A stretch of DNA of 58,502 bases from Maribellus sp. YY47 (GTDB taxonomy: Bacteria; Bacteroidota; Bacteroidia; Bacteroidales; Prolixibacteraceae). Where the stretch lies: positions 1 to 58,502 of the forward strand of contig NZ_JALGYW010000029.1 of the NCBI RefSeq assembly GCF_023111095.1. The letters run 5' to 3'. Of the stretch, positions 8,316 through 28,512 are shown in pieces. The notes beneath the pieces are model-generated. The model saw only the letters and a program-made list of their open reading frames with translations, was not told the origin of the DNA and ran no database searches. The translations under genes were made by a program, and so were the position numbers. How positions within the stretch are numbered: the stretch's first letter is position 1; each line of letters opens with the position of its first letter.

Positions 8316-8418
8316 TTGTTCTGTTCAATTTTTATTGCAAAATACTAAACAATGTCAAATCTCAAAAGTTGAGAGTTACTTCCCTTTTTATACCTTAGCA
8401 AAGCAAAATCAAAAATTT

Positions 8419-8874
8419 ATGCGTGTAGTTATTCAGAAAGTAAAAGAAGCCTCCGTTACTGTTGAAGGAGAAAAGATTTCGGCAATAGAGACAGGACTGC
8501 TGGTCCTGGTGGGTATCGAAAGCGAAGATACAGAGGAAGATATATCGTACCTGGTAAAAAAGATAGCTCAGCTTCGCGTTTTTGATGATGAGAACGGGGT
8601 GATGAATTTATCAGTACAGGATGTGGGGGGCGATGTAATTGTTGTCAGCCAGTTTACGCTTCAGGCCAGCACCAAAAAAGGAAACCGGCCCTCGTACATT
8701 CGTGCGGCGCGGCCCGAGTTTTCCATCCCGATGTACGAGAAATTTGTGGCTTCGATGGAAGAAGCGCTGGGTAAAAAAGTTGGCACCGGTAAGTTTGGCG
8801 CCATGATGGAGGTAGCCCTGGTGAACGACGGTCCGGTAACCATTATCATTGATTCAAAACAAAAGGATTTTTAA
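8419..8874 (+). CDS. dtd: D-aminoacyl-tRNA deacylase
   Basis: This 151-residue enzyme hydrolyses D-amino acids and glycine mischarged on tRNA. The N-terminus MRVVIQKVKEASVTVEGE is diagnostic, so the start is the ATG at 8419 rather than the open frame extending upstream. The two active-site motifs are present: SQFTLQASTKKGNRPS at about 81-96 and the cross-subunit Gly-cisPro motif NDGPVTIII near the C-terminus. It heads a two-gene unit with the mazG-like gene 11 bases downstream, a pairing that places tRNA and nucleotide-pool quality control together. Confidence 0.95.
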   Translation: MRVVIQKVKEASVTVEGEKISAIETGLLVLVGIESEDTEEDISYLVKKIAQLRVFDDENGVMNLSVQDVGGDVIVVSQFTLQASTKKGNRPSYIRAARPEFSIPMYEKFVASMEEALGKKVGTGKFGAMMEVALVNDGPVTIIIDSKQKDF

Positions 8875-8885
8875 TTTTTCAGGAA

Positions 8886-9227
8886 ATGAATTCGCAAAAC
8901 ATAAGCATAAAAGAAGCCCAGCAACAAGTAGATGAATGGATCAAAACCATTGGAGTACGCTATTTTAGCGAGCTGACTAACATGGCTATACTTACCGAAG
9001 AAGTGGGCGAACTGGCGCGCATTATGGCGCGAAAATATGGCGATCAGTCGTTTAAAAAGTCGGATGAAGAATACAAGCTGGCCGACGAAATGGCGGATGT
9101 TCTGTGGGTGTTGATTTGCCTGGCCAATCAAACCGGTGTTGACTTAAGTGAGGCATTTATCAAAAATATCGGGAAAAAAACAACAAGGGACAAAGACCGT
9201 CATCAAAACAATGAAAAACTGAAATAA
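8886..9227 (+). CDS. MazG-like nucleotide pyrophosphohydrolase
   Basis: A 113-residue all-alpha NTP pyrophosphatase of the MazG superfamily. The metal-binding signature is visible as EEVGELARIMARKYGD (about 39-54) followed by LADEMADVLWVLICLAN (about 65-81), that is, EExxE then ExxD. Such proteins hydrolyse non-canonical or excess nucleoside triphosphates. The single short domain resembles the small iMazG/RS21-C6-like forms rather than two-domain E. coli MazG. It is probably co-transcribed with dtd. Confidence 0.88.
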   Translation: MNSQNISIKEAQQQVDEWIKTIGVRYFSELTNMAILTEEVGELARIMARKYGDQSFKKSDEEYKLADEMADVLWVLICLANQTGVDLSEAFIKNIGKKTTRDKDRHQNNEKLK

Positions 9228-9470
9228 ACGCGAAAATCTGGGATTTTGATCAGTTCAGAACTTTATTCCATCCAATGAAATGAATTTGCAAGTTCCGGAA
9301 ACTACCTGGTTCCAATCTCTAAAAACCGCCAATATTAAGCAGCTTTAAAACATTTGCTGTGAGTAGACTTCGGTGACTATTATCGTGTTTTAATCCCGGA
9401 AAATTTCCTTACTTTGGCTATGCAACAAAAGTTGCATTCATTCCGAATTAACAAGACTTAAAATAATAAA

Positions 9471-10490
9471 ATGGAAAATATCGATTGGAATAATCTTGGT
9501 TTCGGCTACCGAAAAACAGATTACAACATAAGATGCACCTATAAAGATGGCGCCTGGGGTGATCTGGAAGTTAGCGACAGTGAATATTTTACAATGCACA
9601 TGGCTGCCTCTGCCATTCATTACGGGCAGGAAGCGTTTGAAGGCCTGAAAGCATTCAGAGGAAAAGACGGCAAAATCCGTGTTTTCAGAATGGATGAAAA
9701 TGCCAAACGTATGCAGGATTCGGCCAACGGAACCTTGATGGCCCGCTTTCCGCAGGAAAAATTCATGGAAGCCGTAACCAAAGCGGTAAAACTTAATGAG
9801 AGGTTTGTTCCTCCTTACGAGTCGGGAGCTTCGCTGTACATTCGCCCGGTGCTGTTTGGCACAGGAGCCGAAATTGGTGTAAAACCGGCCCGCGAGTACA
9901 TGTTCATCCTGTTTGTGACTCCGGTTGGTCCGTATTTTAAAGGCGGTTTCCAAACCACTCCTTTCGTGATTATGCGCGAATTCGACCGCTCTGCTCCGCT
10001 TGGAATGGGAAAATTTAAAGTGGGCGGAAACTATGCAGCCAGTCTTATTGCCGGACAAAAAGCACACGAGTTGGGCTATTCCAATATTTTCTATCTCGAT
10101 GCAAAAGAGAAAAAATACATCGATGAATGTGGTGCAGCCAATTTCTTTGGGGTAAAAAATAACACCTACATTACACCCAAGTCAGAATCTATTTTACCAT
10201 CCATCACCAACAAGAGTTTGATGGTTTTGGCCGAAGAAATGGGAATGAAAGTAGAATGCCGCCACGTTCCGGTGGAAGAGCTTGCTACGTTTGAAGAAGC
10301 CGGTGCCTGCGGAACAGCAGCTGTTATCAGCCCGATCCAGCGGATTGACGACTACGATACAAAAGAATCGTACGTTTTCTCGAAAGACGGAAAACCAGGC
10401 CCCATCAGTGAAAAACTGTACAATAAGTTACGTGCTATTCAGTATGGCGATGAGCCGGATAACCACGGCTGGGTAACTGTTATTGACTAA
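9471..10490 (+). CDS. ilvE: branched-chain amino acid aminotransferase
   Basis: This 339-residue class IV PLP aminotransferase carries out the last step of isoleucine, leucine and valine synthesis and the first step of their breakdown. It belongs to the longer group related to mitochondrial BCATs. The PLP lysine is K183 in GKFKVGGNYAAS. Other fold motifs are EAFEGLKAFRG at 55-64, YIRPVLFGTGAEIGV and IDECGAANFF. It is monocistronic, with its own terminator at 10550. A 209-residue antisense open frame over this gene is a shadow. Confidence 0.95.
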   Translation: MENIDWNNLGFGYRKTDYNIRCTYKDGAWGDLEVSDSEYFTMHMAASAIHYGQEAFEGLKAFRGKDGKIRVFRMDENAKRMQDSANGTLMARFPQEKFMEAVTKAVKLNERFVPPYESGASLYIRPVLFGTGAEIGVKPAREYMFILFVTPVGPYFKGGFQTTPFVIMREFDRSAPLGMGKFKVGGNYAASLIAGQKAHELGYSNIFYLDAKEKKYIDECGAANFFGVKNNTYITPKSESILPSITNKSLMVLAEEMGMKVECRHVPVEELATFEEAGACGTAAVISPIQRIDDYDTKESYVFSKDGKPGPISEKLYNKLRAIQYGDEPDNHGWVTVID

Positions 10491-15315: not shown

Positions 15316-15943
15316 TCCTCAATTTGATTTTAATGCCTGCCGAAAAGCAAACGTTGTAGATGTCATTTATATCTCTGTCAAAATTTCCCATTTCATCAAT
15401 TACCACATAATCCAGCATATACCTCAGACCATAAGTAGCCCTGGAATAAAAACTAATTCTTGAGTTATCGAAAACACTTATTCCCAACACCAGTCCCGTA
15501 TCGAAATGCCTGTATGTTTTCATTCCCTGCTTGATACTCGTTGACATCAACTGGCTTAGTTCAATCCCGCACTGAATCGAAAAAAAAGGGTATGGCTCAT
15601 AATTAACTAAAATAGGTAATGCCATGTAATTAAAACGGAAAGTATAATCCTCGGCGAAGCTTTGCTGATAACCCTTTTGTGAGAAAATCAGTTCGTTCGT
15701 AATGGATAATTTTTCGAGGCTTTTTATCGGATAATACTGAACACTTACCCCAAAATGATAAGCTGTAAGCCCTTCTTTATTTTCCAATGAAACATCGTTT
15801 CGTACATCGCTAAAATTAACGCCCCCGATTACTGCAATTTGTGCCTCGGCTTTCAATGCAAAAACAAAGAACAACCAACACAACGCGAACAGCTTAAAAA
15901 ACAGCGTTGGAGATTTACAGGAGACAATTTTGGGAATTTTCAT
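15290..15943 (-). CDS. PorT-like outer-membrane beta-barrel protein
   Basis: This 217-residue exported protein has a long signal sequence (about 1-35, ending KAEAQ) followed by IAVIGGVNFSDVRND, the typical opening of the PorT/outer-membrane-beta-barrel family in Bacteroidota. Alternating amphipathic strands continue to the C-terminus (FSAGIKIKLRN). The stop overlaps the following lipoprotein gene by 26 bases. The upstream 210 bases (15944-16153) show no clear promoter box or RNA structure. Confidence 0.82.
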   Translation of the reverse strand: MKIPKIVSCKSPTLFFKLFALCWLFFVFALKAEAQIAVIGGVNFSDVRNDVSLENKEGLTAYHFGVSVQYYPIKSLEKLSITNELIFSQKGYQQSFAEDYTFRFNYMALPILVNYEPYPFFSIQCGIELSQLMSTSIKQGMKTYRHFDTGLVLGISVFDNSRISFYSRATYGLRYMLDYVVIDEMGNFDRDINDIYNVCFSAGIKIKLRNEKIAFGK

Positions 15944-16153
15944 AATTCAGGTTATTGGTTTATTAGCAGATGATAAATACAATCCGATGGTTGCGTTGAT
16001 TGATAAAACAATTACAATAATTGAAAATAGAGTTTTTTGTCACCAGCTATCTTTTACAAATTAAACCTGATAACAAGAAATCGTGTCTTGCCCTGAAATA
16101 AGGTGCAAATCAGACAATAACTTGACCGATCCCAATATCAATGAATGGGTTCA

Positions 16154-17785
16154 TCAAAACACCTTTTCCCCACCAATCCAGGTACTTTCCACTTTCGCTT
16201 TCAGTACTTCTTCGGGCGTGGCTGTCATTAAATCGGTATCAAGTACCACAAAGTCTGCATATTTACCGGGTTCGAGGCTGCCTTTTTCTTTTTCTTCAAA
16301 CGATGCTTTTGCGGCCCAGATGGTCATAGAACGCAGCGTTTGTTCGCGTGTCAAGCCTTCGTTCATGGGCCAGCCGCCTTCTGGCCAGCCATTATGATCG
16401 GTACGAAAAACCGAGGAATAAAAGGTAAACAGCGGCTCAATGTTCTCCACCGGAAAATCTGTTCCGTTGGGCAACCAGCCGTTTTGCTGAAGTAAAATCT
16501 GGTAAGCATAAGCGCCTTTGATCCGCTCCGGGCCCAAACGATCTTCCGCCCAGGACATATCAGAAGTACAATGCGTTGCCTGAATGGAGGGAACAATCGA
16601 ATACTCTCCAAACTTTTGAAAATCCTCCGGATTAACAATCTGCGAATGCTCGATACGCCAGCGTCGGTCGTTCTTCCCTTTCAGAAACTTAGCATAAGTA
16701 TCCAAAATCAAACGGTTACCGCCGTCGCCAATGGCATGGGTCGCCACTACAAAATTGTTATCGTACGCCAGCTGACAAATGCTGTCGTAATACTCCTGAG
16801 ATTCTATCTGAAGACCACGATTACCGGGGTTATCCGAATAATCGGCTAAAAGCAGAGCTCCACGCGAACCCAGCGCGCCATCGGCATAAATTTTTATCGT
16901 GTTCACCAATAAACGGTCGGTTTGGTAAGCGCCTTTCTTTACAAAATATTCAAAGTTTTCCTGTGTTGGATCCAACATCGCGTTGATCCTCATTTTCAGG
17001 ATCCCTTCCTTTTGCATTTCGTCCATCAGTAAAATGGCACTTTTACCTAAACCACAATCGGTTACAGAGGTCAATCCTGCCGCGAAACAATTTTTTTGAG
17101 CCGCCAGTAATCCTTTTTCATGTTGTTCCGGACTTATTTGGGGAACAAGGCTATAAACCAGGCTCATGGCATTATCAATCAAAATTCCGCCGGGCTTGCC
17201 ATTCTTCAGCAATACTTCTCCCCCATTTACTTTCGACGATGAAGTTACACCAGCCATTTCCAAGGCTTTGGAGTTGCACCAGCCCGCATGCCCGTCAACC
17301 CGAACCAGGTAAACCGGAGTATCTGGAAACAATTCATCCAATTTTGTCTTATCCGGAAATTCTTTTACCTGCCAGTCGTTTTGATCCCAACTACGGCCCA
17401 GAATCCATTCTCCGCCAAATTTTTCGTGATGTGCTTTTATCACTTCATAAATTTCCTCCGGACTTTTGGTGCCGCGCAAGTCGGCATATTGCATCAGGTC
17501 AACACCGTATCCGTTGAAATGACAATGTGCATCATTAAATCCCGGATATACAAATTTGCCTTTTAAGTCGAGTGTTTTTTGCCCTTCGTATTTTGATAGT
17601 ATCTCTTTGGAAGTCCCGGTGGCCAACACTTTCCCCTGATTTACAGCAAGGGCTTCTATAATCCTAAAATCATTATCGATTGTGTAAATCGTTGCATTGG
17701 TTAAAACCAAATCCACTTTTTCCCGGGTTGTACAGCCGATCATAAAAAACAGTATTACTAAAACCAAAAACAGCTTCTTCATCAC
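16154..17785 (-). CDS. amidohydrolase family lipoprotein (YtcJ-like)
   Basis: A 543-residue metal-dependent hydrolase of the amidohydrolase 3 group. The N-terminus carries a lipobox (FFMIGC, cysteine near residue 18), so it is a membrane-anchored periplasmic or surface enzyme rather than the cytoplasmic form. Metal-ligand motifs are GFNDAHCHFNG (HxH, about 85-87), FVVATHAIGDGGN, RIEHSQIV, and PNGTDFPVE with the catalytic aspartate. Family members deacylate or hydrolyse varied amides and the substrate here is open. It stands alone and is divergent from the haem-linked operon at 17.9 kb. Confidence 0.88.
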   Translation of the reverse strand: MMKKLFLVLVILFFMIGCTTREKVDLVLTNATIYTIDNDFRIIEALAVNQGKVLATGTSKEILSKYEGQKTLDLKGKFVYPGFNDAHCHFNGYGVDLMQYADLRGTKSPEEIYEVIKAHHEKFGGEWILGRSWDQNDWQVKEFPDKTKLDELFPDTPVYLVRVDGHAGWCNSKALEMAGVTSSSKVNGGEVLLKNGKPGGILIDNAMSLVYSLVPQISPEQHEKGLLAAQKNCFAAGLTSVTDCGLGKSAILLMDEMQKEGILKMRINAMLDPTQENFEYFVKKGAYQTDRLLVNTIKIYADGALGSRGALLLADYSDNPGNRGLQIESQEYYDSICQLAYDNNFVVATHAIGDGGNRLILDTYAKFLKGKNDRRWRIEHSQIVNPEDFQKFGEYSIVPSIQATHCTSDMSWAEDRLGPERIKGAYAYQILLQQNGWLPNGTDFPVENIEPLFTFYSSVFRTDHNGWPEGGWPMNEGLTREQTLRSMTIWAAKASFEEKEKGSLEPGKYADFVVLDTDLMTATPEEVLKAKVESTWIGGEKVF

Positions 17786-17869
17786 CTAAGCTTTGAATTT
17801 TGCCAAATGTATGGATTAAAGTGCTATTCTAAAACATATACAAGTTACTGTTCAGCTGAATTTTATTTA

Positions 17870-17877
17870 TAACTTTG
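17870..17877 (+). promoter_or_regulatory. -7 box of the haem-linked operon
   Basis: TAACTTTG is a full match to TAnnTTTG and lies 26 bases before the ATG of the small membrane protein at 17904. No clear TTTG -33 box is seen at the usual distance. It is the only good promoter box I see in the 527-base gap before the TonB receptor, so it probably drives the whole co-directional run to 25718. Confidence 0.5.
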
Positions 17878-17903
17878 CCGGCTGACAGAAAAGGCACAAA
17901 CAA

Positions 17904-18242
17904 ATGTTTACATTCGGAATATTTACAACCCACTTCCCCTATTTGGCTTTCCTGTTTTTTTATGCCTATTTTCTACTGTTTGGAGTTAAAGAAGCCAGTA
18001 ACGGCAACATTCGTGTTACTGAAAATTCTCAACAGGTTGAATTTAATCTGAATACACAGCATGAAACTTACGTTTCCGACCTTGTTTATCACTTTGAAAA
18101 TCAATATACAAAACAGGAAGAGACTACACTTCCGAAGATATTTCAACAACCTCACCGGAAAGGCCGGTTAAAAAGCACGCATTTCAAGCAGGATTCAAAT
18201 CCAAACCTTTTTTTTTGTCGCCCCCCTCCGGTATTAGCATGA
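17904..18242 (+). CDS. small membrane protein upstream of TonB receptor
   Basis: This 112-residue open frame begins MFTFGIFTTHFPYLAFLFFYAYFLLF, giving one membrane helix at about 8-28. A polar region and a proline-rich end (FFCRPPPVLA) follow. A -7 box 26 bases upstream and the absence of any other gene in the gap support it being real. I have a recollection of similar small proteins with a GIFTTH-PY-AF start in Bacteroidota but no name for them. It ends 70 bases before the receptor gene. A non-coding leader remains the alternative. Confidence 0.6.
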   Translation: MFTFGIFTTHFPYLAFLFFYAYFLLFGVKEASNGNIRVTENSQQVEFNLNTQHETYVSDLVYHFENQYTKQEETTLPKIFQQPHRKGRLKSTHFKQDSNPNLFFCRPPPVLA

Positions 18243-18312
18243 AAAACAAATGCCCTAATAATAACCTGTTCCCTATTTTCAAAGGAACGAGATACATCAA
18301 CAAATTGAAACC

Positions 18313-20412
18313 ATGAGAAAAACAGTAATGCTTTTAGCGGCGATGCTGCCATTTATTTCAGCGATTAAAGCACAAACAAATACATCACAGGATTCGATCA
18401 AACATTACCATTTGGAGGACATCGAAATAAAATCGCCCAAATACAACCGGAACATATTTGAGATTCCGGCAGCCGCGACAATGGTGCCCGAACGTTTGAT
18501 TGAAAACAATAAAATTCAGAACCTGACCGATATTTCGGCGGTGGTTCCCAACTTTTTTATGCCCGATTATGGTTCGAAACTTACCTCTCCGGTTTATATC
18601 CGGGGTGTGGGTAACCGAATCAATACACCATCGGTGGGACTTTATGTCGACGGGATTCCCTACTTTGAAAAATCAGCTTTCAATTTTGATTTTTTTGATG
18701 TGGAACGTATCGAAGTACTGCGCGGACCGCAGGGAACCTTGTACGGAAGAAATGCCATGGGTGGCTTGATCAACGTGATCACCAATCAACCCGGCAATAA
18801 AAGACGCACAAGCGTTTCCGCCGATTATGGAAAGTTCAATCAAAAGAATGTGCAAGTTTCACACAACCAGCCAATCACCGAAAAACTGTCGGTTTTGGGT
18901 AACTTCAATGTGCGCGACAACGAAGGCTTTTTCACCAACCAATTTAACAATACAAAAGTGGATGCACTTGAAAGTTATTCAGGTCGGTTAAAACTGGCAT
19001 ACAATCCGTTAAAAAATTTCCATATCAACGGTAACATTCAGTACGAAGACAGCAAGCAAATCGGCTATCCGTATGCTGTGTTTAACGATTCAACCAACCG
19101 GGCGGGAGCGATTAATTACGACCATGAGAGCTTGTATAACCGAAAAATGCTGTCGACAGGGATTAACCTGAGTTATCAGGCCGAAAAATTTCTGTTTACC
19201 GCTACAACAAGTTATCAGTCGGTCAAAGATTTTCAGGATATCGATCAGGACTTTACTCCGGAGTCGTTGTTTTTTGTAATACAAAATCAAAAACAACACA
19301 TGTATTCTCAGGAATACAACATGCAATCGTGTGAACAAAATCTGTATAACTGGATGTTTGGTATATTTTCGTTTAGCCAGTATCAGGATAAGTCGGTTAC
19401 GGTAGAATATGGCGAAGACGGCCTCGCAAAATACCGGCTTCCCTATAACGAATATCGTTATACCAAGACCTACGGCAATAATAATTCAGGTCTTGCTTTT
19501 TTCCACCAATCAACTTTCGATTTAGGTGGGCTTTCATTTACTGTGGGATTACGCGCCGATTTTGAAAAAGCCATGCTGAGTTATTTCTACGACAAATTTC
19601 CAAACGGAGAACTTAAACCGGTTGAAACCTTTGCCAGTGAAATGGATTTCTTTGAAATTCTTCCGCGTTTTGCGCTAAAATACAGCATTTCAGAATATTT
19701 TGTTCCTTATGCAACTGTTGCCAAAGGGTATAATTCGGGAGGTTTTAATTCCACATTTGAACGTGAAGAAGATCGCTCTTTCAAACCCGAAGAATCGTGG
19801 AATTACGAGGCCGGTATCAAGGCAAAATGGCTGGAACAACGCGTATATGCCAACCTGGCTTTCTTTTATATCGACTGGACCAACCAGCAGATATACCAAA
19901 CCGTGCCCAGCGGAACAGGCTCGATGCTGACCAACGCCGGAAAATCGGAAAGCAAAGGTGTTGAATTTGAACTCAAGGCACTGCCGGCAAAAAATCTTGA
20001 AACCTGGTTCAGTTTCGGTTACAACGATGCTAAATTTACCGATTACGTTAAAGACGAAAACGAAGACTACAGCGGAAATTATATTCCTTATGTTCCCCGT
20101 TTCTCATTTAATGCGGGTGCAAATTACACACTTGAACTCGACAATTCGTGGCTCGACCGTGTTCGTTTTCACGTTACCTACAATGGTTTTGGAAAGCATT
20201 ACTGGAAAGAAACCAACGAAGCTTATCAGGATTACTACGGATTACTGAACCACCGCATCACCTTCGAAAAAAACAATGTGACACTGGCATTCTGGGGTAA
20301 AAATATTTTAGACGCTAATTACAATTCTTTCTATTTTCAGGCTTTGGGAAATTCCTATGCACAAATCGGGAAACCGGCAACCATGGGATTCAACCTGAAA
20401 ATTGCATTCTAG
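18313..20412 (+). CDS. TonB-dependent receptor linked to late haem genes
   Basis: A 699-residue outer-membrane active transporter. It has a signal peptide of about 20 residues (ending IKAQ) and a TonB box-like DIEIKSPK region near 37-45. The plug holds PVYIRGVGNRINTPSVGLYVDG and VERIEVLRGPQGTLYGRNAMGG, and a 22-strand barrel ends GFNLKIAF. It lacks the carboxypeptidase-like head of most Bacteroidota receptors and resembles the FyuA/FptA siderophore and haem group. An MFS gene starts 7 bases downstream, followed by hemN, hemG and hemH. Imported substrate is inferred to be a siderophore or a tetrapyrrole. Confidence 0.9.
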   Translation: MRKTVMLLAAMLPFISAIKAQTNTSQDSIKHYHLEDIEIKSPKYNRNIFEIPAAATMVPERLIENNKIQNLTDISAVVPNFFMPDYGSKLTSPVYIRGVGNRINTPSVGLYVDGIPYFEKSAFNFDFFDVERIEVLRGPQGTLYGRNAMGGLINVITNQPGNKRRTSVSADYGKFNQKNVQVSHNQPITEKLSVLGNFNVRDNEGFFTNQFNNTKVDALESYSGRLKLAYNPLKNFHINGNIQYEDSKQIGYPYAVFNDSTNRAGAINYDHESLYNRKMLSTGINLSYQAEKFLFTATTSYQSVKDFQDIDQDFTPESLFFVIQNQKQHMYSQEYNMQSCEQNLYNWMFGIFSFSQYQDKSVTVEYGEDGLAKYRLPYNEYRYTKTYGNNNSGLAFFHQSTFDLGGLSFTVGLRADFEKAMLSYFYDKFPNGELKPVETFASEMDFFEILPRFALKYSISEYFVPYATVAKGYNSGGFNSTFEREEDRSFKPEESWNYEAGIKAKWLEQRVYANLAFFYIDWTNQQIYQTVPSGTGSMLTNAGKSESKGVEFELKALPAKNLETWFSFGYNDAKFTDYVKDENEDYSGNYIPYVPRFSFNAGANYTLELDNSWLDRVRFHVTYNGFGKHYWKETNEAYQDYYGLLNHRITFEKNNVTLAFWGKNILDANYNSFYFQALGNSYAQIGKPATMGFNLKIAF

Positions 20413-20419
20413 CCGGCCG

Positions 20420-21634
20420 ATGAATAAAAATGAACTGAACAAATACGGCACGCTGCTGAGTCTCTACCTGGCACAGTCGATCCCGATGAGTTTTTTCTCG
20501 ACGGTGATCCCTGTGATCATGCGCATGGAAAACTATTCGCTGGAGTCGATCGGTTATATCCAGCTGATAAAACTTCCATGGATTTTAAAACTGCTTTGGG
20601 CCCCGTTGGTGGATTTCACCAGCAAAACCAAAGCGCAATACCGGCGTTGGATTTTAGCTTCCGAAGTGTTTTATGCAATGGTGATTGTGAGCATCGGCTC
20701 GCTAAACCTGGCCACCGATTTTATAGCCATTGTGGTGCTGATGGTGATTGCATTTACCGCTTCGGCAACACAGGATATTGCCACCGACGCTTTTGCCATT
20801 CTTGTACTGAAAAAGGAGGAACGCAGCCTGGGAAACAGCATGCAATCGGCCGGAAGCTTTATAGGAACCATGGTGGGAAGCGGCGTACTGCTGATTATCT
20901 ACCACTACTGGGGCTGGAAAATGCTGCTACACTCGCTTGGCGCTTTTGTGTTGCTGGCACTTATACCGGTTACCCTCTACAAAGTGCGAAAAGACCTCGA
21001 GACCAAAGGTCCTTCCAAAAAGGTTTCACCTTTCGATTTTGCCTACTTCTTTAAACAAAAGAAAATAGGCGGCCACGTATTACTGCTGTTCCTGTTTTAT
21101 TCAGGAATTATCGGAATACTAACCATGGTAAAACCTTACTTTGTTGACCTGGGTTACGATGTAAAGAAAATTGGCGTTATTTCGGGCATTTTCGGAACGG
21201 CCTGCGGTGTGGCCATGACCATTCCTGCCGGAATGTTTCTCCGCCGCCGGGGAATTGTGCGATCAGTCTGGTATTTTCCGGTCATGAACCTGATCGTGGC
21301 GCTTTACTTTTTTGGTTTAACTTTTACCAACCATCATTTGTTACTGATGTATATCGGAGTTGCATTGCTTTGGGGAACTTATGCAATGGCGTCGGTATTT
21401 GTTTATACCATGAGTATGCAGGTGGTACGCAAGGGGCGTGAAGGAACCGACTTCACCATCCAAATCGTTATCACCCATCTTAGTAGTTTGGTAATTGCAA
21501 TAATGAGCGGAAAAATAGCGGATGCAATCGGCTATCGCGGATTATTTGGCATTGAGATTGCATTGTGTGTGATCCTTTTGCTGCTTTTACCGTTTATATT
21601 CAATGTATCGTTCTACGAGCGCGAAGAGGAATAG
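20420..21634 (+). CDS. MFS transporter, AmpG/RhtX-like
   Basis: A 404-residue, roughly 12-helix major facilitator protein. The start MNKNELNKYGTLLSLYLAQSIPMSFF and the PWILKLLWAPLVD and ATQDIATDAFAI motifs match the AmpG / RhtX-FptX branch. Its members import muropeptides or whole siderophores across the inner membrane. ATG 20420 is chosen over 20402, which would overlap the receptor gene. Immediate linkage to a TonB receptor favours the RhtX/FptX-type role of carrying the receptor's ligand into the cytoplasm. The hemN gene follows after 35 bases. Confidence 0.85.
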   Translation: MNKNELNKYGTLLSLYLAQSIPMSFFSTVIPVIMRMENYSLESIGYIQLIKLPWILKLLWAPLVDFTSKTKAQYRRWILASEVFYAMVIVSIGSLNLATDFIAIVVLMVIAFTASATQDIATDAFAILVLKKEERSLGNSMQSAGSFIGTMVGSGVLLIIYHYWGWKMLLHSLGAFVLLALIPVTLYKVRKDLETKGPSKKVSPFDFAYFFKQKKIGGHVLLLFLFYSGIIGILTMVKPYFVDLGYDVKKIGVISGIFGTACGVAMTIPAGMFLRRRGIVRSVWYFPVMNLIVALYFFGLTFTNHHLLLMYIGVALLWGTYAMASVFVYTMSMQVVRKGREGTDFTIQIVITHLSSLVIAIMSGKIADAIGYRGLFGIEIALCVILLLLLPFIFNVSFYEREEE

Positions 21635-21669
21635 CGCCGTAAACAAATTTTATTTTTAAATTTCAGATT

Positions 21670-23046
21670 ATGCAGATCGATCAAAGACTTATTCAAAAAT
21701 ACAATACACCGGTACCAAGGTACACCAGTTACCCGCCGGCCAACTTTTTCACACCCGATTTTACCGCCGATGACTACATCCGGATACTGGAACGTTCGAA
21801 TACCGAAAATCCACAGAATATTTCGATTTATATTCACATTCCGTTCTGTCCGAAAATATGTTATTACTGTGGCTGTAATACCCATTTAACAAAGGATCAG
21901 GATAAAATGCGGCGCTATGTCGATGCCGTAAAGAAAGAAATCCTGATGGTAAAAAATTACCTCGATCCGAACCGAAAAGTTTCGCAGGTACACTGGGGAG
22001 GCGGAACACCCAATTCGTTGCCCGTGGGAATGATTGATGAAATCATGCAGGTTATTCACGACAATTTCACTTTTATCGACAAAGCGGAAATTGCGATGGA
22101 ATGCCATCCCGCCATGCTCGACGAAGCGTTTATTGAACGGCTGGTGGCCATGAAATTCAACCGGTTCAGTCTGGGAATTCAGGATTTTGATCAAAAAGTG
22201 CTGGACAATGTTAACCGCGACGGCTCGATTATTCCGGTAGAAGAACTGGTGGCTATGATCCGGAAACACCCCAACACAGGTATTAACCTCGATTTTATCT
22301 ATGGACTACCTTATCAGGATGTGGATTCGTTTGCCAAAACCATCGAAAGAGCTATTGAAATCTCGCCCGATCGTTTGGTAACGTTTTCGTATGCACATGT
22401 TCCGTGGGTACGCAAGGCACAAAAAATACTTGAAGCCAAAGGCCTTCCATCGGCAACTAAAAAGCTCGACATGTTCGAAAAAGGCTATCAACTGCTTACC
22501 CAAAATGGTTATGCAGCCATCGGACTGGATCACTACGCCAAACCCGACGATGAACTGGCCATTGCATTCAACAGCAAAAAACTACACCGTAATTTCCAGG
22601 GTTACTGTACCCGCGAAACTACGGGCCAGGTATATGCTTTCGGAGCCACCGGAATCAGCCAGCTCGAAAGCGCTTATGCACAGAATATAAAAGACACCAA
22701 CACTTATGTTGATCAGATCAACCAGGGAAAATTCACCGTTGAAAAAGGGTATGAACTCAGTCAGCGGGAAAAAATAATCCGCCATGTGATCAACGAAGTG
22801 ATGTGTAATTACTATATTTCATGGAAAGATGCAGAACAGGTTTTTGGCATCGGCGTAGATGAAATCAAAAAGGCAATCAGCTATGAGGAAGAATCATTGG
22901 GAGCATTTGCTGAAGAAGGATTGCTGGTTTTTAACACCGATGAAATTACGGTGCTTGACCGCGGAAAGTTTTTTGTAAGAAACATTGCCGCCAACCTCGA
23001 TCCCATCTTAAAAAATGCGACACAAAAATTCTCAAGAGCCCTGTAA
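21670..23046 (+). CDS. hemN: oxygen-independent coproporphyrinogen III oxidase
   Basis: A 458-residue radical SAM enzyme that decarboxylates two propionates of coproporphyrinogen III to give protoporphyrinogen IX anaerobically. The HemN-type cluster CxxxCxxCxC is present at C60, C64, C67 and C69 (PFCPKICYYCGCN). The HemN N-terminal arm with VPRYTSYPPANFF is intact, which separates it from the HemW-type chaperone at 35016. GGGTPN and the HemN C-terminal domain are present. Full length for the family. It lies in the same transcription unit as the receptor, MFS, hemG and hemH genes. Confidence 0.95.
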   Translation: MQIDQRLIQKYNTPVPRYTSYPPANFFTPDFTADDYIRILERSNTENPQNISIYIHIPFCPKICYYCGCNTHLTKDQDKMRRYVDAVKKEILMVKNYLDPNRKVSQVHWGGGTPNSLPVGMIDEIMQVIHDNFTFIDKAEIAMECHPAMLDEAFIERLVAMKFNRFSLGIQDFDQKVLDNVNRDGSIIPVEELVAMIRKHPNTGINLDFIYGLPYQDVDSFAKTIERAIEISPDRLVTFSYAHVPWVRKAQKILEAKGLPSATKKLDMFEKGYQLLTQNGYAAIGLDHYAKPDDELAIAFNSKKLHRNFQGYCTRETTGQVYAFGATGISQLESAYAQNIKDTNTYVDQINQGKFTVEKGYELSQREKIIRHVINEVMCNYYISWKDAEQVFGIGVDEIKKAISYEEESLGAFAEEGLLVFNTDEITVLDRGKFFVRNIAANLDPILKNATQKFSRAL

Positions 23047-23047
23047 C

Positions 23048-24403
23048 GTGAATAAAGAAGATGTTAAAATTGCCATTATCGGCGCCGGATTAACCGGATT
23101 AACCACCGCTTTTTACCTCAAAAAGAACGGTGTAAAATTTCATGTTTTTGAAAAAGATAATCGCCCCGGAGGAGTGATCCGAACCAACCAAGAGGATGGT
23201 TTTATATTTGAATCGGGTCCGAACACCGGTGCATTGGGGCAACCCGAAGCTGCCGAACTTTTTGAAGACCTGAAAGACGATTGCACACTTGAAGTCGCCA
23301 ACGAGGCAGCAAAAGCACGCTGGATCTGGCTAAACGGAAAATGGGAAGCCATTCCTTCGGGTTTGATCGGCGGTATTGCCACTCCCCTGTTTACCTTTGG
23401 CGACAAGCTTCGCATATTGGGTGAGCCTTTCCGAAAACCCGGCACCAATCCCGATGAAACCGTTGCCGAAATGGTCCGCCGACGCATGGGGAAAAGCTTC
23501 CTCAGAAATGCTGTCGATCCGTTTTTATCGGGTGTTTATGCCGGCGATCCGGAAAAACTGATCACCCGTTTTGCACTGCCCAAACTTTACAACCTTGAAC
23601 ATAAGTACGGCAGTTTTATTGGCGGCACCATCAAAAAAGCCAAAGAGCCCAAAACCGAAAGAGAGAAGAAAGCCACAAAAGCTGTTTTTTCGGCAGAAGG
23701 TGGCCTCGAAAACCTGGTGAAAGCCCTTGTAAAAAATATTGGCGACGAGAACATCAGCCTCAGTTGCAAAAACCTTGAAGTAAAAAAACTGGATGACAAC
23801 AATTCCTACCAACTGGGTGAAGAAACGTTTACCCATGTAATTTCTACGGTTGGCGCGTATGGATTACAACACCTGTTTCCTTTTCTTCCGGCTGAAAAAG
23901 TAGGCGAAATCAACCAGATGAAATATGCGAAAGTAACGCAGGTTTCACTGGGATTCAAAAACTGGAAAGGCTTACCGATCAAATCGTTTGGAGGACTGGT
24001 ACCATCGGCTGAAAAGCGACAGGTACTGGGTATCTTGTTCCTGTCCTCGTTTTTGAAATACCGTGCTCCCGAGGGCGGTGCCATGCTGTCGGTGTTTATG
24101 GGTGGCATCCGAAAACCCGAGTTGTTTGAATTGAACGACGAAGAACTTTTGAAAATCGTTGAACAGGAAGTCACTGAAATGATGGGACTTCAAACCTTCG
24201 ATCCAGATATATGCCGCATTTTCCGTTACGAACATGCTATTCCGCAATACAGTTTTGAAAGCGAACAGAAACTGGCTGCCATTTCAGCGCTCGAAAAAGA
24301 ATTCCCGGGTGTGATTTTGGCCGGAAACATTCGCGACGGAATTGGAATGGCCGACCGTATTAAACAAGGCCGCATTATTGCTGATCATTTCTCAACCATT
24401 TGA
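23048..24403 (+). CDS. hemG: protoporphyrinogen oxidase (HemY-type, FAD)
   Basis: A flavoprotein of about 451 residues that oxidises protoporphyrinogen IX to protoporphyrin IX. The FAD-binding motif GAGLTGLTTAFYLKK lies near the N-terminus, followed by FEKDNRPGGVIRT. The C-terminal AGNIRDGIGMADRIKQG is the family's second FAD contact. The GTG at 23048, two bases after the hemN stop, puts the glycine motif about 10 residues from the start, as usual. An ATG at 23015 would overlap hemN by 32 bases and is the alternative. hemH follows one base after the stop. Confidence 0.9.
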   Translation: MNKEDVKIAIIGAGLTGLTTAFYLKKNGVKFHVFEKDNRPGGVIRTNQEDGFIFESGPNTGALGQPEAAELFEDLKDDCTLEVANEAAKARWIWLNGKWEAIPSGLIGGIATPLFTFGDKLRILGEPFRKPGTNPDETVAEMVRRRMGKSFLRNAVDPFLSGVYAGDPEKLITRFALPKLYNLEHKYGSFIGGTIKKAKEPKTEREKKATKAVFSAEGGLENLVKALVKNIGDENISLSCKNLEVKKLDDNNSYQLGEETFTHVISTVGAYGLQHLFPFLPAEKVGEINQMKYAKVTQVSLGFKNWKGLPIKSFGGLVPSAEKRQVLGILFLSSFLKYRAPEGGAMLSVFMGGIRKPELFELNDEELLKIVEQEVTEMMGLQTFDPDICRIFRYEHAIPQYSFESEQKLAAISALEKEFPGVILAGNIRDGIGMADRIKQGRIIADHFSTI

Positions 24404-24404
24404 T

Positions 24405-25394
24405 ATGAATAAGTCGAACACAGCTGTTTTACTGGTCAATATAGGTAGTCCGGATGCTCCAACCAAGCCGGCAGTACGTCGTTATCTTACTCAATTTCTG
24501 AATGATAAACGAGTAATTGATATTCCGTGGCTGGCACGAAAAATACTTGTGAATCTGATCATTATCCCCTTCAGGGTAAAAAAATCGACTCAACTTTACC
24601 TGCGGCTATGGACCAAAAAAGGTTCACCTCTTATTTATCTTTCAAAAGAACTGCAGGAAAAATTACAGCATAAACTGGGCGAAAAAGCCGATGTTTTTGT
24701 GGGGATGCGGTACGGAAATCCCGGTTATAAGCAGGCGCTTCTTCAAATTCAGAAAGAAGGATATAAAAAGCTGATCGTTTTGCCGCTTTTCCCGCAACAT
24801 GCACTTTCTACAACCGAGACTGCCTTTGTAGCGGTTGAAGAGTATGTGAAAAAGAAAAAAATTGATGTTGAAATTATCCGTATCGGGCAATTCTTCCGAA
24901 ATCCGGGATTTATCAAAGCTTTTGCCGAGCAGGCCGAAAAATACGATCCGAAAAGTTACGATTTTGTACTTTTCTCGTACCACGGGCTACCCAACCGTCA
25001 GGATGAAAAGAGCCAACCCGACGACCAGCCGGCCGGAGAAGTTTATGCCTACAGCCGCGCCTGTTGCGAAACAACCCAGTTAATTGCCAAGGAAATGGGT
25101 TTGAAAGACGATGAGTACACCATTGGATTTCAATCGCGGCTTTCGAAAAACTGGCTGACTCCGTTTTCGGATGATGTGCTCGACCGCAAACTAAAGGAAG
25201 GTAAAAAGAAAATTCTGGTACTGGCACCGGCTTTTGTAACCGATTGCCTGGAAACCATTGTTGAGATCGACCACGATTACAACCGCGAATTCAGGCAGAA
25301 AGGCGGAGAAAGAGTAAAACTGGTCGAAAGTTTAAACACCGAGGATCGCTGGGTGGATACCTTGTGTGAACTGATTGAAGAAAAACTCAATTAA
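24405..25394 (+). CDS. hemH: ferrochelatase
   Basis: A 329-residue enzyme that inserts ferrous iron into protoporphyrin IX, the last step of haem b synthesis. The catalytic histidine is H193 in FSYHGLPNRQ and the acidic partner is E283 in TDCLETIVEIDHD. NIGSPDAPTKPAVRRYL at the start is typical. ATG 24405 is chosen over the longer frame from 24342, which would overlap hemG. It is the last enzyme of the hemN-hemG-hemH series and the only haem enzymes in the operon are these three. Confidence 0.95.
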   Translation: MNKSNTAVLLVNIGSPDAPTKPAVRRYLTQFLNDKRVIDIPWLARKILVNLIIIPFRVKKSTQLYLRLWTKKGSPLIYLSKELQEKLQHKLGEKADVFVGMRYGNPGYKQALLQIQKEGYKKLIVLPLFPQHALSTTETAFVAVEEYVKKKKIDVEIIRIGQFFRNPGFIKAFAEQAEKYDPKSYDFVLFSYHGLPNRQDEKSQPDDQPAGEVYAYSRACCETTQLIAKEMGLKDDEYTIGFQSRLSKNWLTPFSDDVLDRKLKEGKKKILVLAPAFVTDCLETIVEIDHDYNREFRQKGGERVKLVESLNTEDRWVDTLCELIEEKLN

Positions 25395-25397
25395 GGG

Positions 25398-25718
25398 ATG
25401 AGTGATTTCCTGAACATTCTTCCGTCAGATTTATATCCCGAAGAGCTTTGGATACGTGTTTTGTTAACCTGTCTTGTTACTTTTGTGGTTAATCTTCCGT
25501 TTGGATATATGCGTGGAAAGTTCAGGAAACTCTCCTTCTGGTGGTTTTTCTTTATTCACCTCCCGGTTCCACTGATCATTCTTATCCGGAAATTCTTTGG
25601 CCTGTCGCTAACCTGGGGTTTGGCTCCGTTTCTGATCGGAAGTTTCTTTCTGGGGCAATTCGTCGGACGAAAAATTTACGCCAAATATCCGCTGAAAAGT
25701 TCAAAAAAACCGGATTAA
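25398..25718 (+). CDS. small membrane protein at the end of the haem operon
   Basis: A 106-residue protein with two to three hydrophobic segments (about 20-40, 48-66 and 75-92) and a basic tail (KYPLKSSKKPD). No family recognised. It starts 3 bases after the hemH stop, so it is almost certainly co-transcribed. It could be a membrane partner of the haem enzymes. It ends 12 bases from the convergent aldehyde dehydrogenase gene. Confidence 0.75.
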   Translation: MSDFLNILPSDLYPEELWIRVLLTCLVTFVVNLPFGYMRGKFRKLSFWWFFFIHLPVPLIILIRKFFGLSLTWGLAPFLIGSFFLGQFVGRKIYAKYPLKSSKKPD

Positions 25719-25730
25719 AAACCGAAACGG

Positions 25731-27095
25731 CTATTTCACTACCACCGTTTTTACATTGGTAAATTCTTTTATTCCCTGCGACGAAAGTTCTCGGCCAAAA
25801 CCACTGGTTTTTATTCCGCCAAAAGGTAAGCGCGGATCAGACTTCACAAAATCGTTTACAAAACAGGCCCCCGCTTCCAAACGCATTTCAGCGATGTTTT
25901 CGCCTTTTGAAGTGTTGGCGGTGAAAATGGCTGCCCCCAATCCAAATTCGGTGTCATTTGCCACTTTAATCGCCTCCTGAAGGTCTTTTACTTTTATTAC
26001 TGCAGCCACCGGTCCAAAAAGCTCTTCTTCGTAGGCCGGCATTCCGGGTTTTACATTTTCCAGAATTGTGGGTGGATAGAAAGCCCCTTTTATACGCGGA
26101 ATTTCTCCCCCGATGATCACTTCAGCGCCTTTTTCGACCGAAGCTACTACCTGCTGATGCAATTCATCGCGCAGATCGGTTCTTGCCAAAGGACCAATGG
26201 TTGTATCTTCATCAAAAGGATCGCCAAACACGGCAGCGCTCATTTCGTGGGTAAACAACTCCAGAAAATGGGCATACACTTTTTCTTCCACGATAAAACG
26301 CTTGGCGCCGATACAACTTTGTCCGGCATTTATCAGCCTTCCGGAAGCACATTTTTTTGCGGCACGTTCCATATCGGCGTCTTCCATAATAATGTAGGGA
26401 TCACTCCCTCCCAGCTCCAGCACACATTTTTTGAGTTCCGATCCGGCTATGGCAGCCACGCTTTTTCCGGCAGGCGTACTCCCGGTTAAACTCACTGCTT
26501 TTATTGCTTTATGACGGATAACTTTCTCAACCTTCTTACTGTCAATCAACAGAGAGCGAAAAACGTTCTCAGGGAATCCGGCTTCACGAAACAGGTCTTC
26601 GATGGCAATTGCACAACCCGGCACGTTACTGGCATGTTTCAATACCGCTGTGTTGCCGGCCATCAGTGAGGGTACCGCAAAACGAAATACCTGCCAAAAC
26701 GGAAAATTCCAGGGCATAATTCCAAAAATCGTCCCCAGGGGATGATACGAAACATATGATCTGGAAGCCTCTGTCCGAATGGGCTCGTTTTCCAGAAAGC
26801 TTTCGGCATTTGCCGCATAATAATCACAAACCCAGGCACACTTTTCAATCTCGGCAATTCCTTCACGTTTTACCTTCCCCATTTCAAGCGCCATCAGAAA
26901 AGCCAGTTCGTCCTTTTTCGACTTTAATAATCCCGACAAATTCTGCATCAACTGGCCCCGAAACATAAAAGAGGTGCTCTTCCAGTGCTGCCAGCTTTTA
27001 TCTACGGCATTGATTATTTTCTCTGTTCCTTCGTTGGTGTGCGCTTCGTATGATTTAACCACTTCTCCCGTGGTTGGGTTGATCGATTGTAACAT
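25731..27095 (-). CDS. NAD(P)-dependent aldehyde dehydrogenase, succinate-semialdehyde type
   Basis: A 454-residue aldehyde dehydrogenase. The catalytic glutamate is in VLELGGSDPYII (about 237) and the nucleophilic cysteine in INAGQSCIGAKRF (about 270). The cofactor motif GIMPWNFPFWQ is complete. The short 454-residue form and FGGIKTSGFGRELSSQG ending resemble the succinate-semialdehyde dehydrogenase group of Bacteroidota, which converts succinic semialdehyde to succinate. No GABA aminotransferase is nearby, so the substrate is uncertain. Monocistronic, convergent with the haem operon. Confidence 0.9.
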   Translation of the reverse strand: MLQSINPTTGEVVKSYEAHTNEGTEKIINAVDKSWQHWKSTSFMFRGQLMQNLSGLLKSKKDELAFLMALEMGKVKREGIAEIEKCAWVCDYYAANAESFLENEPIRTEASRSYVSYHPLGTIFGIMPWNFPFWQVFRFAVPSLMAGNTAVLKHASNVPGCAIAIEDLFREAGFPENVFRSLLIDSKKVEKVIRHKAIKAVSLTGSTPAGKSVAAIAGSELKKCVLELGGSDPYIIMEDADMERAAKKCASGRLINAGQSCIGAKRFIVEEKVYAHFLELFTHEMSAAVFGDPFDEDTTIGPLARTDLRDELHQQVVASVEKGAEVIIGGEIPRIKGAFYPPTILENVKPGMPAYEEELFGPVAAVIKVKDLQEAIKVANDTEFGLGAAIFTANTSKGENIAEMRLEAGACFVNDFVKSDPRLPFGGIKTSGFGRELSSQGIKEFTNVKTVVVK

Positions 27096-27163
27096 GGCTA
27101 AAATTTGTGTTGTAACTTTTAAAAGTACAAAATATGGTCAAAAAACAGGACTGCTGCACCCAT

Positions 27164-27955
27164 TTATTTGACATAGTCTTTCCCAAGAATGACCCGCATA
27201 GTAGTTCCGTTCAAAAAATATTCGTAATACGAACCTTCTTCCTCCTTATCGTCGCGAATAATTCTTCCTTTTTTGTTCTTTTTCAAATCATACATTCGGT
27301 TTACAACGCCAACCACTTCTCCCTTCTGGTTGACAATGGGCGCCCCAACGAAATTGCTGTAAAAAATATAGTCTTCCACTTTCAGCCGAATATCCGGCTC
27401 CGAATATTTTTCATTCATTGGCGTTTCAACGATTCCGCTAACCATCTTCAGATTATGGTCGTTGTCATATCCCACTACAAACAGGCTGTCTTTATTTCGA
27501 ATACGGTTAACATTGGGTTCAAGGGGAATGATGTTCTCATTTTTCTCTTTTATTGAAAAGGAAAGAAAGGGAGCCGAATACAAAAAAATGAACGATTTCT
27601 TTTCGATTCGCTGTTTCATAAACAGGCTATCAAGCAATACAAATTGAGAAGGGTCGTCGGAAACAAACATTTTCCACGATTTCAGTTCCGTGCGGAAAGA
27701 ATCAACCGGAATAATGTCTCCCCAACTGTAAGTGGTACCGGTAAGATCGCGCGCGGTAATGGCAATTACATCCTTGTGGTAATTGATCAGAAAACCCGAG
27801 CCCCAGGTCAGATCGTTGTACTTTTTGAAACTGGCCTCGTTGTGCAAAACAATCTTTTTCCAGGGCATGTACAGCAGAGGATCGCCAATGTATTGACCGT
27901 TAACATTTCCAACGGCAAGCAGAAAAAGAAATATCGTCTGAAATATCGTTTTCAT
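27164..27955 (-). CDS. secreted trypsin-fold protein lacking catalytic residues
   Basis: A 263-residue protein with a signal peptide of about 20 residues (ending NVNGQ). The body has landmarks of a trypsin-like protease. GSGFLINYHKDVIAITARD (52-70) corresponds to the strand and loop that carry the catalytic histidine, and NFVGAPIVNQKGEVVGVVN (201-219) to the GNSGGPxxNxxGxVVGV serine loop. Here D70 stands where histidine is expected and V203 where serine is expected. It therefore looks like an inactive pseudoprotease that may bind peptides or other proteins. The alignment is by eye. Alone on its strand between the aldehyde dehydrogenase and osmC genes. Confidence 0.6.
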   Translation of the reverse strand: MKTIFQTIFLFLLAVGNVNGQYIGDPLLYMPWKKIVLHNEASFKKYNDLTWGSGFLINYHKDVIAITARDLTGTTYSWGDIIPVDSFRTELKSWKMFVSDDPSQFVLLDSLFMKQRIEKKSFIFLYSAPFLSFSIKEKNENIIPLEPNVNRIRNKDSLFVVGYDNDHNLKMVSGIVETPMNEKYSEPDIRLKVEDYIFYSNFVGAPIVNQKGEVVGVVNRMYDLKKNKKGRIIRDDKEEEGSYYEYFLNGTTMRVILGKDYVK

Positions 27956-28014
27956 CGCTTAAAATTCTATGAGATTAAAGGTGAAAATTAATCACTGATT
28001 TGCAAAAAACAGTT

Positions 28015-28045
28015 CCATAAAAAAAAGCGGCTGTTGGGCCGCTTC
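28015..28045 (-). terminator. terminator of the second osmC gene
   Basis: The stem AAGCGGC / GCCGCTT (28025-28031 with 28038-28044) has a 6-base loop. On the minus strand it is followed by a T-run, seen as the A-run at 28016-28026 on the plus strand. It lies 11 bases past the stop of the gene at 28056. Confidence 0.85.
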
Positions 28046-28055
28046 TTCGGTATTT

Positions 28056-28472
28056 TTAGTCTACAATCCTGATTTCGATTTCCATCTCCATGGCCTTTCG
28101 GTACACAGCCGTTACCCCACAATACTTCTCTTCCGACAACTTCACCGCTTTTTCCAGTTTTTCCAGAGGTAAATCCTTTCCTTTAAACTGGTAAACCACT
28201 TTCATTTTGGAGTAATGTTTAGGATGTTCATCGGTAACATCGGCTTCAACAATTACATTGAAAGCTTCCACATCCACTTTCATTTTTTTCAGAATCATGA
28301 TTACGTCAACACCGGTACAACCCGCTAAAGCCGTAAGCATCAATTTCTTCGGACGCGGTCCCAGATCGCTCCCACCAGCTTCCTCGGTGGCATCCACTAT
28401 CACTTTGTGCCCGTCCATGTCGGCTTCGAAAGCGAGCTTGTCCGTCCACGCCATATCGACAATATGCTTCAT
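28056..28472 (-). CDS. OsmC family protein, short form
   Basis: A 138-residue OsmC-fold protein with the cysteine pair in LTALAGCTGVDVIMIL (about C52) and SEEKYCGVTAVYRK (about C118), as in thiol peroxidases acting on organic hydroperoxides. It is of the YhfA-like short subtype, different from the 170-residue paralogue at 682. It is divergent from a Crp/Fnr regulator gene. A palindrome in its promoter spacer suggests that the regulator or a relative controls it. Confidence 0.9.
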   Translation of the reverse strand: MKHIVDMAWTDKLAFEADMDGHKVIVDATEEAGGSDLGPRPKKLMLTALAGCTGVDVIMILKKMKVDVEAFNVIVEADVTDEHPKHYSKMKVVYQFKGKDLPLEKLEKAVKLSEEKYCGVTAVYRKAMEMEIEIRIVD

Positions 28473-28512
28473 AACATCCTAATTTTAAAATACTTTTAAG
28501 TTACTTTTGCAA

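Follow-up and report, generated by a model that had tools for sequence, protein, structure and literature searches.

A candidate tetrapyrrole-salvage operon under a putative RPPP-ending leader peptide in Maribellus sp. YY47

Results

The stretch of DNA analysed here, 58,502 nucleotides of Maribellus sp. YY47 (Prolixibacteraceae; RefSeq assembly GCF_023111095.1, contig NZ_JALGYW010000029.1, positions 1 to 58,502; hereafter the window), carries seven co-directional open reading frames (ORFs) at 17904–25718, in which a TonB-dependent receptor and a permease of the major facilitator superfamily (MFS) stand between a 112-residue peptide, ORF1, and the late haem-synthesis genes hemN, hemG and hemH. 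We consider it probable that these genes form a tetrapyrrole-salvage operon under a nascent-peptide leader. The most likely role of the receptor and the permease is to supply HemN with coproporphyrin(ogen) III, and we read ORF1 as a leader for haem supply that would act by nascent-chain arrest, with stalling and a signal presumed from its likeness in design to CruR and CutF. Conservation, position, promoter placement, selection at the peptide level, the occurrence of the leader at four kinds of haem locus and the phylogenetic profile are directly supported.

Phylogenetic profile of the importer genes

The profile compares an order sample of 295 Bacteroidales genomes with a family sample of 100 genomes that includes the window's own; MFS presence in the family sample was called at E up to 1e-20. 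Across the order sample, the MFS gene occurs in 39 genomes, hemB in 53, hemH in 74 and hemN in 78. The permease is present in 31 of the 33 genomes that have hemN and lack hemB, versus 4 of the 45 that have both (Fisher p 4e-15, only a guide since the genomes are related and not independent). When hemH is used instead of hemN, the split is 26/33 versus 3/41. Counted by family, 17 families are hemB-negative and MFS-positive, 23 are hemB-positive and MFS-negative, and none is crossed; eight mixed families were dropped from this count, and these contain every counterexample, namely the hemB-positive, MFS-positive genomes G000 (the window's), G112, G197 and G301 and the MFS-negative exceptions G154 and G371. 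The latter two may be assembly gaps: G154 has hemE above cut-off, and G371 has a leader match at a contig end. The mixed families f3 and f57 hold hemB-negative, MFS-positive genomes beside hemB-positive, MFS-negative ones, that is, the switch itself. The split is weaker in the family sample (9/11 versus 16/70), because Draconibacterium-like genomes retain both routes.

Gene order and gene loss agree with this pattern. The MFS gene lies upstream of hemN, on the same strand and within 455 nucleotides, in all 35 order-sample genomes that have both, including the window's, and hemE exceeds its cut-off in none of 43 MFS-positive, hemB-negative genomes (35 from the order sample and 8 more from the family sample). 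Together, the profile, the MFS–hemN adjacency and the absence of hemE indicate that the retained steps begin at HemN and that the missing compound is coproporphyrinogen III. The importer occurs in genomes that retain the late steps but have lost the early ones, as expected of a porphyrin importer. Among the entry points that an earlier note on this DNA had proposed for an imported porphyrin, HemN is accordingly the best reading, with the profile in its support.

Other arrangements also occur. Genome G256 carries receptor–MFS–hemG–hemH without hemN, and G172 has the MFS gene without hemN; in such hemN-less genomes, entry may be at protoporphyrin, or a divergent enzyme may have been missed by the models. 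G131 (locus L108) and G338 (L098) carry receptor–MFS–hemG, with neither hemN nor a detected hemH ferrochelatase in the genome. At L089 (G311), a 496-residue ORF at 6314–7804 on the plus strand, antisense to the operon and transposase-like as judged by eye only, lies between receptor and MFS genes, with a short receptor fragment on its far side. At L125 (G104) and L133 (G222), the MFS frames are 508 and 482 residues long with the match split in two by extra sequence, and RGPP peptides with unusual N-termini lie upstream of the receptor.

The genome of the window's organism itself holds hemA, a fused hemC–hemD, hemB, hemL and hemE together on another contig (G000:C3:86283–92596; NCBIfam models), with no leader ahead of that hemA. 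Judged by gene content, the organism is not a haem auxotroph, and with a complete early pathway salvage would therefore be optional there. Dependence on exogenous tetrapyrroles, which the earlier note had considered, is rejected for this organism, given that its early genes are present.

Operon organization and identity of the receptor and permease

The ORF listing, which covered positions 15500–28500, reproduces the seven genes of the earlier note, all on the plus strand. The three enzymes keep the names it gave them, each exceeding its NCBIfam equivalog cut-off: hemN at 21670–23046, an oxygen-independent coproporphyrinogen III oxidase (TIGR00538, 497 bits, cut-off 325); hemG at 23015–24403, a HemY-type protoporphyrinogen oxidase (TIGR00562, 264 bits, cut-off 98); and the ferrochelatase gene hemH at 24405–25394 (TIGR00109, 228 bits, cut-off 125), whose start is taken at an internal ATG of an ORF running from TTG 24342. 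The linkage is retained in relatives. The order receptor–MFS–hemN recurs in 24 of 24 fetched family relatives, the window not being among them, and hemG follows hemN in 23, the contig of the remaining one ending after hemN. The window's MFS protein is 95% identical to that of Maribellus luteus, and the six post-leader genes show 86–96% protein identity to those of M. luteus and Maribellus sp. CM-23. This gene arrangement is far beyond chance.

The proposed outer-membrane porphyrin receptor, at 18313–20412, is a TonB-dependent receptor by PF00593 and PF07715, and its closest solved relative is the pesticin receptor (4EPA). It scores 176.6 bits against the TonB-siderophore receptor model TIGR01783, under the curated cut-off of 223.5, and 58.2 bits against the haem receptor model TIGR01785, far under the cut-off of 316.85. 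The proposed inner-membrane porphyrin importer, at 20417–21634 with an earlier TTG start possible at 20402, belongs to PF07690 and has AmpG as its closest solved relative. Its description as AmpG/RhtX-like stands insofar as RhtX/FptX and AmpG are its closest NCBIfam models, but both scores lie under cut-off (TIGR02718, 152.4 versus 356.15 bits; TIGR00901, 147.1 versus 350 bits). RhtX/FptX siderophore permeases are paired with a TonB receptor and, like the window's protein, are MFS permeases; the latter differs from them in its sub-threshold score and in its linkage to haem enzymes. In nine close relatives (L031–L039) with MFS proteins 75–79% identical to the window's, receptor identity at the corresponding position is 69–70% in three and 41–43% in six, as if receptors had been swapped in place.

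These similarities invite another explanation, akin to the earlier note's alternative of iron or siderophore uptake serving HemH, in which receptor and MFS protein take up a ferric siderophore whose iron supplies ferrochelatase, and the leader is an iron sensor. The models nearest to the two proteins, TIGR01783 and TIGR02718, are indeed of siderophore types, though under cut-off, the nearest receptor structure is 4EPA, and two divergent receptor classes occupy the receptor slot among close relatives. However, siderophore import leaves unexplained why the importer goes with loss of hemB, why it adjoins hemN rather than hemH, and why the same leader stands before hemA–hemE, and we regard it as unlikely. 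Import of haem itself, with HemN, HemG and HemH carried along for other reasons, is very improbable: the leader does also precede a pair of HmuY and receptor genes, a haem-acquisition type, but the window's receptor falls far below the haem model (58 versus 317 bits) and haem import has no need of HemN, yet 35 of 39 MFS-positive genomes have hemN. Delivery of coproporphyrin(ogen) III to HemN remains the preferred reading of the pair.

The last gene, ORF7 (25398–25718), encodes a 106-residue membrane protein without a match in Pfam or NCBIfam. It accompanies hemH in many family relatives, both those with the importer and three that have none there (L113, L114 and L115). The earlier suggestion that this protein and ORF1, which also heads hemA–hemE and other haem loci without this importer, could both be dedicated parts of the import system is not supported.

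Conservation of the leader peptide

ORF1 (17904–18242) comprises a membrane segment at about residues 10–28, a variable middle and a C-terminus reading FCRPPPVLA-stop, in which the RPPP codons (residues 106–109; 18219–18230) form the presumed arrest motif, as judged from alignments and codon diversity. The earlier description of ORF1 as a small membrane protein is correct in that it has one N-terminal membrane segment; as a whole it reads as a leader peptide with an RPPP end. A protein search returned 45 homologs, 44 of them 109–115 residues long and one of 151. Aligned, they start MFTFGIFTTHxPY...FYAYFLLFG, continue through a free middle and end F-x-R-P-P-P, with R106, P108 and P109 invariant in 39 aligned sequences; both the alignment and simple hydropathy support the membrane segment.

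Screening the regions ahead of receptor and hemA genes for peptides with [RKN][PAG]P[PT] close to the C-terminus, with start codons sought 95–135 residues before the stop, gave a larger set of 51 leaders. Within this motif-selected set, RPPP occurs 42 times, RGPP and RPPT three times each, and RAPP, KAPP and NPPP once each; the motif lies 2–9 residues from the stop, and lengths are 109–124 residues under the start restriction. The motif quadruplet is written in 47 distinct codon spellings and is therefore kept as a peptide. Three leaders (L125, L133 and L139) have N-termini unlike those of the remaining 48. Moreover, the ratio of nonsynonymous to synonymous substitution rates (dN/dS) of ORF1 against two Maribellus genomes amounts to 0.15 and 0.17, dS being almost saturated. 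ORF1 and two further leaders have no Pfam match, including to DUF2946, the leader alignments contain no conserved cysteine pair or CXXC, and the window's genome holds no second leader copy, its single match being the only one at E up to 10. His10 was rejected as a universal haem ligand of the leader because it is not retained across the order.

Purifying selection of this strength (dN/dS 0.15–0.17) and the strongly conserved N-terminal segment would also be expected if ORF1 worked as a small membrane protein in haem metabolism, as a chaperone or subunit rather than as a regulatory leader. Against this, the middle varies freely while length and RPPP end stay constant, a promoter box lies upstream in 30 of 50 cases and downstream in none, and ORF1 is absent from 12 of 34 assessable importer loci of the order; such a function seems quite unlikely.

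Genomic contexts of the leader

A whole-genome search of the 295 genomes, in which up to 15 candidates were scored per genome, gave 29 leader matches with E < 1e-4. Two are at contig ends and the other 27 all lie ahead of haem loci: 20 before receptor–MFS pairs (in one of these, G112, the receptor is a remnant), six before hemA–hemC–hemD–hemB–hemL(–hemE) and one before genes for HmuY and a TonB receptor. When close relatives were sought among named genomes, several of them already in the first samples, the leader stood at haem loci in 23 of 23 cases (20 receptor–MFS, two hemA and one hemN–hemG–hemH); the last, L198 of Draconibacterium aestuarii, has no importer. Approached from the importer side, the leader is found upstream of the receptor at all 23 assessable family loci, the window among them, two more having too little upstream sequence, and at 22 of 34 assessable further order loci, three not being assessable. 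The 22 order-locus leaders comprise 14 with RPPP, three with RPPT, two with RGPP and one each with RAPP, KAPP and NPPP. The twelve leaderless loci are L126, L127, L129, L130, L132, L134, L135, L137 and L140–L143; the MFS protein of L135 has its closest named relatives in Dysgonomonas and Parabacteroides.

The motif was also considered within the 1.5 Mb of fetched loci, which had been chosen around receptor, MFS and hem genes. There, 49 of 1072 ORFs of 90–180 residues combine R[PAG]PP near the end with a membrane segment, and 45 of these lie within 650 nucleotides upstream of a receptor, MFS or hemA gene; the other four are L114 (hemN), L099 (HmuY), L111 (another receptor) and L170 (unexplained). 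At L099 (G247; 7104–10412, minus strand), an RPPP leader precedes an HmuY gene and a TonB receptor, with hemB on another contig. At L111 (G281; 9889–10218, minus strand), a membrane peptide ending RGPP precedes a different TonB receptor and may represent an independent arrest leader belonging to the TonB-related class already reported. Outside Bacteroidales, ten weak matches besides the window appeared in 166 genomes (E 0.003–0.047) and were not counted. Five weak order matches (E 6e-4 to 0.007) were left out of the leader counts: G129 has internal stops, G384 falls within a 1113-residue frame, G230 is a partial match, G377:C16 has no leader-like ORF at the locus, and G281 is the RGPP peptide before the different TonB receptor.

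In G093 and G042, the order is leader–hemA...hemE–hemN–hemG–hemH–ORF7, to be compared with leader–receptor–MFS–hemN–hemG–hemH–ORF7 in the window; judged by gene order, the receptor and MFS genes stand where the early genes are found in these relatives. The hemA, hemN and HmuY contexts rule out ORF1 as an import subunit.

A leader of the SecM/VemP type, monitoring protein localisation and present at haem loci because some of their products are membrane proteins, would share the membrane anchor and RAPP-like C-terminus that characterise Sec/YidC monitors, and proline-ending upstream ORFs (uORFs) do occur before secA and secDF in Bacteroidota (PMC10987492). At many loci, however, the next gene encodes soluble HemA or HemN, and the 27 assessable strong matches in the order all stand before haem loci, which makes a localisation monitor decidedly improbable. 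For a leader serving haem supply, haem is common to all assessable contexts, which makes haem or a porphyrin the most probable signal and iron the next.

Promoter placement and gap RNA

The good −7 box that the earlier note saw ahead of the operon is confirmed as TAACTTTG at 17870–17877 on the plus strand, its first base 34 nucleotides upstream of the ORF1 start codon. The motif TANNTTTG, which we take to be the Bacteroidota −7-type promoter consensus, occurs in the 90 nucleotides ahead of 30 of 50 leaders, where mononucleotide shuffles predict 2.7, and in none of the 50 stretches of 90 nucleotides after the leader stop; the count covers 50 of 53 leaders, the odd L125, L133 and L139 being omitted and L099 and L114 included. 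With a box before the leaders and none after, a single transcript starting just upstream of the leader probably covers both it and the haem genes. Between leader stop and receptor start, the window has a gap (18243–18312) in which RNA folding predicts a weak hairpin with arms at 18267–18272 and 18284–18289. As to a possible conserved RNA switch there, the mean folding z over 45 such gaps is −1.25 relative to shuffles, with no intergenic control set, and the window's own gap has z −0.3.

Discussion

The following mechanism would account for these observations. Outside coproporphyrin III, or a reduced or metal form of it, would pass the outer membrane through the TonB receptor and be carried over the inner membrane by the MFS protein; HemN, which requires the reduced porphyrinogen, HemG and HemH would then convert it to haem. 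In many relatives this import would substitute for the lost early pathway, whereas in the window's organism it would add to a complete one. Transcription would begin just upstream of ORF1, and as the ribosome translates ORF1 the N-terminal segment would insert into the membrane and translation would pause at RPPP, just ahead of the stop codon. The length of the pause would presumably be set by haem or porphyrin supply and, on the precedent of CruR and CutF, the pause may decide transcription or translation of the downstream haem genes, through exclusion of Rho or the opening of RNA structure in the gap. In support of such a pause, E. coli ribosomes lacking elongation factor P (EF-P) stalled at RPPP more strongly than at any other XPPP in the NlpD context, and strongly also in the CadC context (PMC4176338).

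Several points weigh against this interpretation. The window's genome holds a complete early haem pathway, hemB is present in 16 of the 25 MFS-positive genomes of the family sample, weak hemE-like matches (75–96 bits, cut-off 303) occur in 8 of the 43 MFS-positive, hemB-negative genomes, and hemN is absent from four MFS-positive genomes of the order sample. The receptor is similar to siderophore receptors and to the pesticin receptor. As for the leader, it has no conserved metal or haem ligand, His10 being missing in several order members; it is lacking at 12 of 34 assessable order importer loci; and among the 22 order importer leaders, eight have a variant of RPPP, three of these with N-termini unlike the family's. 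It precedes hemA at 7 of 30 assessable order loci, for which 46 of 49 hemB-positive, MFS-negative genomes were fetched, six because of a leader match, and at 10 of 20 family loci, drawn from 59 genomes with hemB and without MFS and including G093, already known to be leader-positive; two more end in an SPP variant. RNA structure in the gap is only slightly in excess. Furthermore, EF-P rescues PPP stalls (PMC4176338), so that RPPP alone may be only a pause, and the proline-rich end of CutF alone gave no stall (PMC9973294).

Arrest leaders with RAPP-like C-termini are already known as a kind, as are proline-ending candidates before secA and secDF in Bacteroidota. ORF1 shares their general features: it is a small ORF heading an operon behind a promoter, with a membrane segment and a C-terminal polyproline motif. 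The closest parallel in layout is CruR of Bordetella pertussis (BP2923, DUF2946), the first ORF of its operon, with an N-terminal export signal, a TonB-dependent receptor gene next to it and a C-terminal RAPP three residues from the end that is needed for downstream expression; this end and copper govern the receptor gene through Rho (PMC9426467). Whereas CruR uses CXXC to sense copper, ORF1 heads haem genes, carries RPPP and has neither a Pfam match nor a conserved CXXC, and thus lacks the DUF2946 match and the CXXC some 45 residues before RAPP that mark the CruR type. CutF of Rhodobacter capsulatus is likewise an exported leader. Its proline-rich C-terminus controls the following gene, and the gap between the two genes contains a stem-loop (PMC9973294). 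CutF differs in having a copper-binding CxxxC and in controlling a multicopper oxidase.

The RAPP/RGPP arrest peptides (ApdA, ApdP and TonB-related uORFs) are likewise short proteins, membrane-bound or secreted, that carry a RAPP-like motif close to their C-terminus, and three RGPP and one RAPP peptides are among the 51 motif-selected leaders here; the present leaders mostly carry RPPP, and their targets are haem genes. RAPP/RGPP uORFs before TonB receptors are reportedly widespread in Gram-negatives, and the copper class of the surveyed uORFs is reported missing in Bacteroidota (PMC12992588). That survey used RAPP and RGPP, and its main text, as available, contains no words beginning PPP, RPPP or heme.

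On the import side, haem auxotrophs of the Bacteroidota are concentrated in Bacteroidales (PMC11139205), and precursor foraging by Porphyromonas species with partial pathways has already been proposed (PMC4700951). Porphyromonas HusA/HusB likewise represents porphyrin salvage in Bacteroidales without early haem genes, but HusA, a secreted haemophore, fails to bind coproporphyrin III (PMC6173696), and the available parts of these sources name no MFS–hemN operon for Porphyromonas foraging. No description of the RPPP leader family at haem loci, or of a receptor–MFS coproporphyrin importer in Bacteroidales, was found in the literature searched, most subscription papers and all preprints lying outside its reach.

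Taken as a whole, the earlier interpretation of this locus as a porphyrin-scavenging operon is partly supported. As a broader and more tentative proposal, for which the evidence falls somewhat short of an even balance, Bacteroidales may use a dedicated family of membrane-anchored RPPP leaders as haem gauges, placed before whichever operon supplies haem, be it hemA–hemE synthesis, receptor–MFS coproporphyrin salvage, the late steps alone or HmuY-type capture. If true, and within the literature searched, the leader would be the first tetrapyrrole sensor that acts as a nascent peptide, and the receptor–MFS pair the first importer dedicated to coproporphyrin. The phylogenetic profile names a receptor–permease pair and its likely substrate, where the available literature yielded no named route of coproporphyrin uptake, and it predicts which genomes belong to organisms able to subsist on coproporphyrin that their neighbours release. 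The leader, in turn, would make haem supply a further cue read by a nascent chain, besides copper and protein export.

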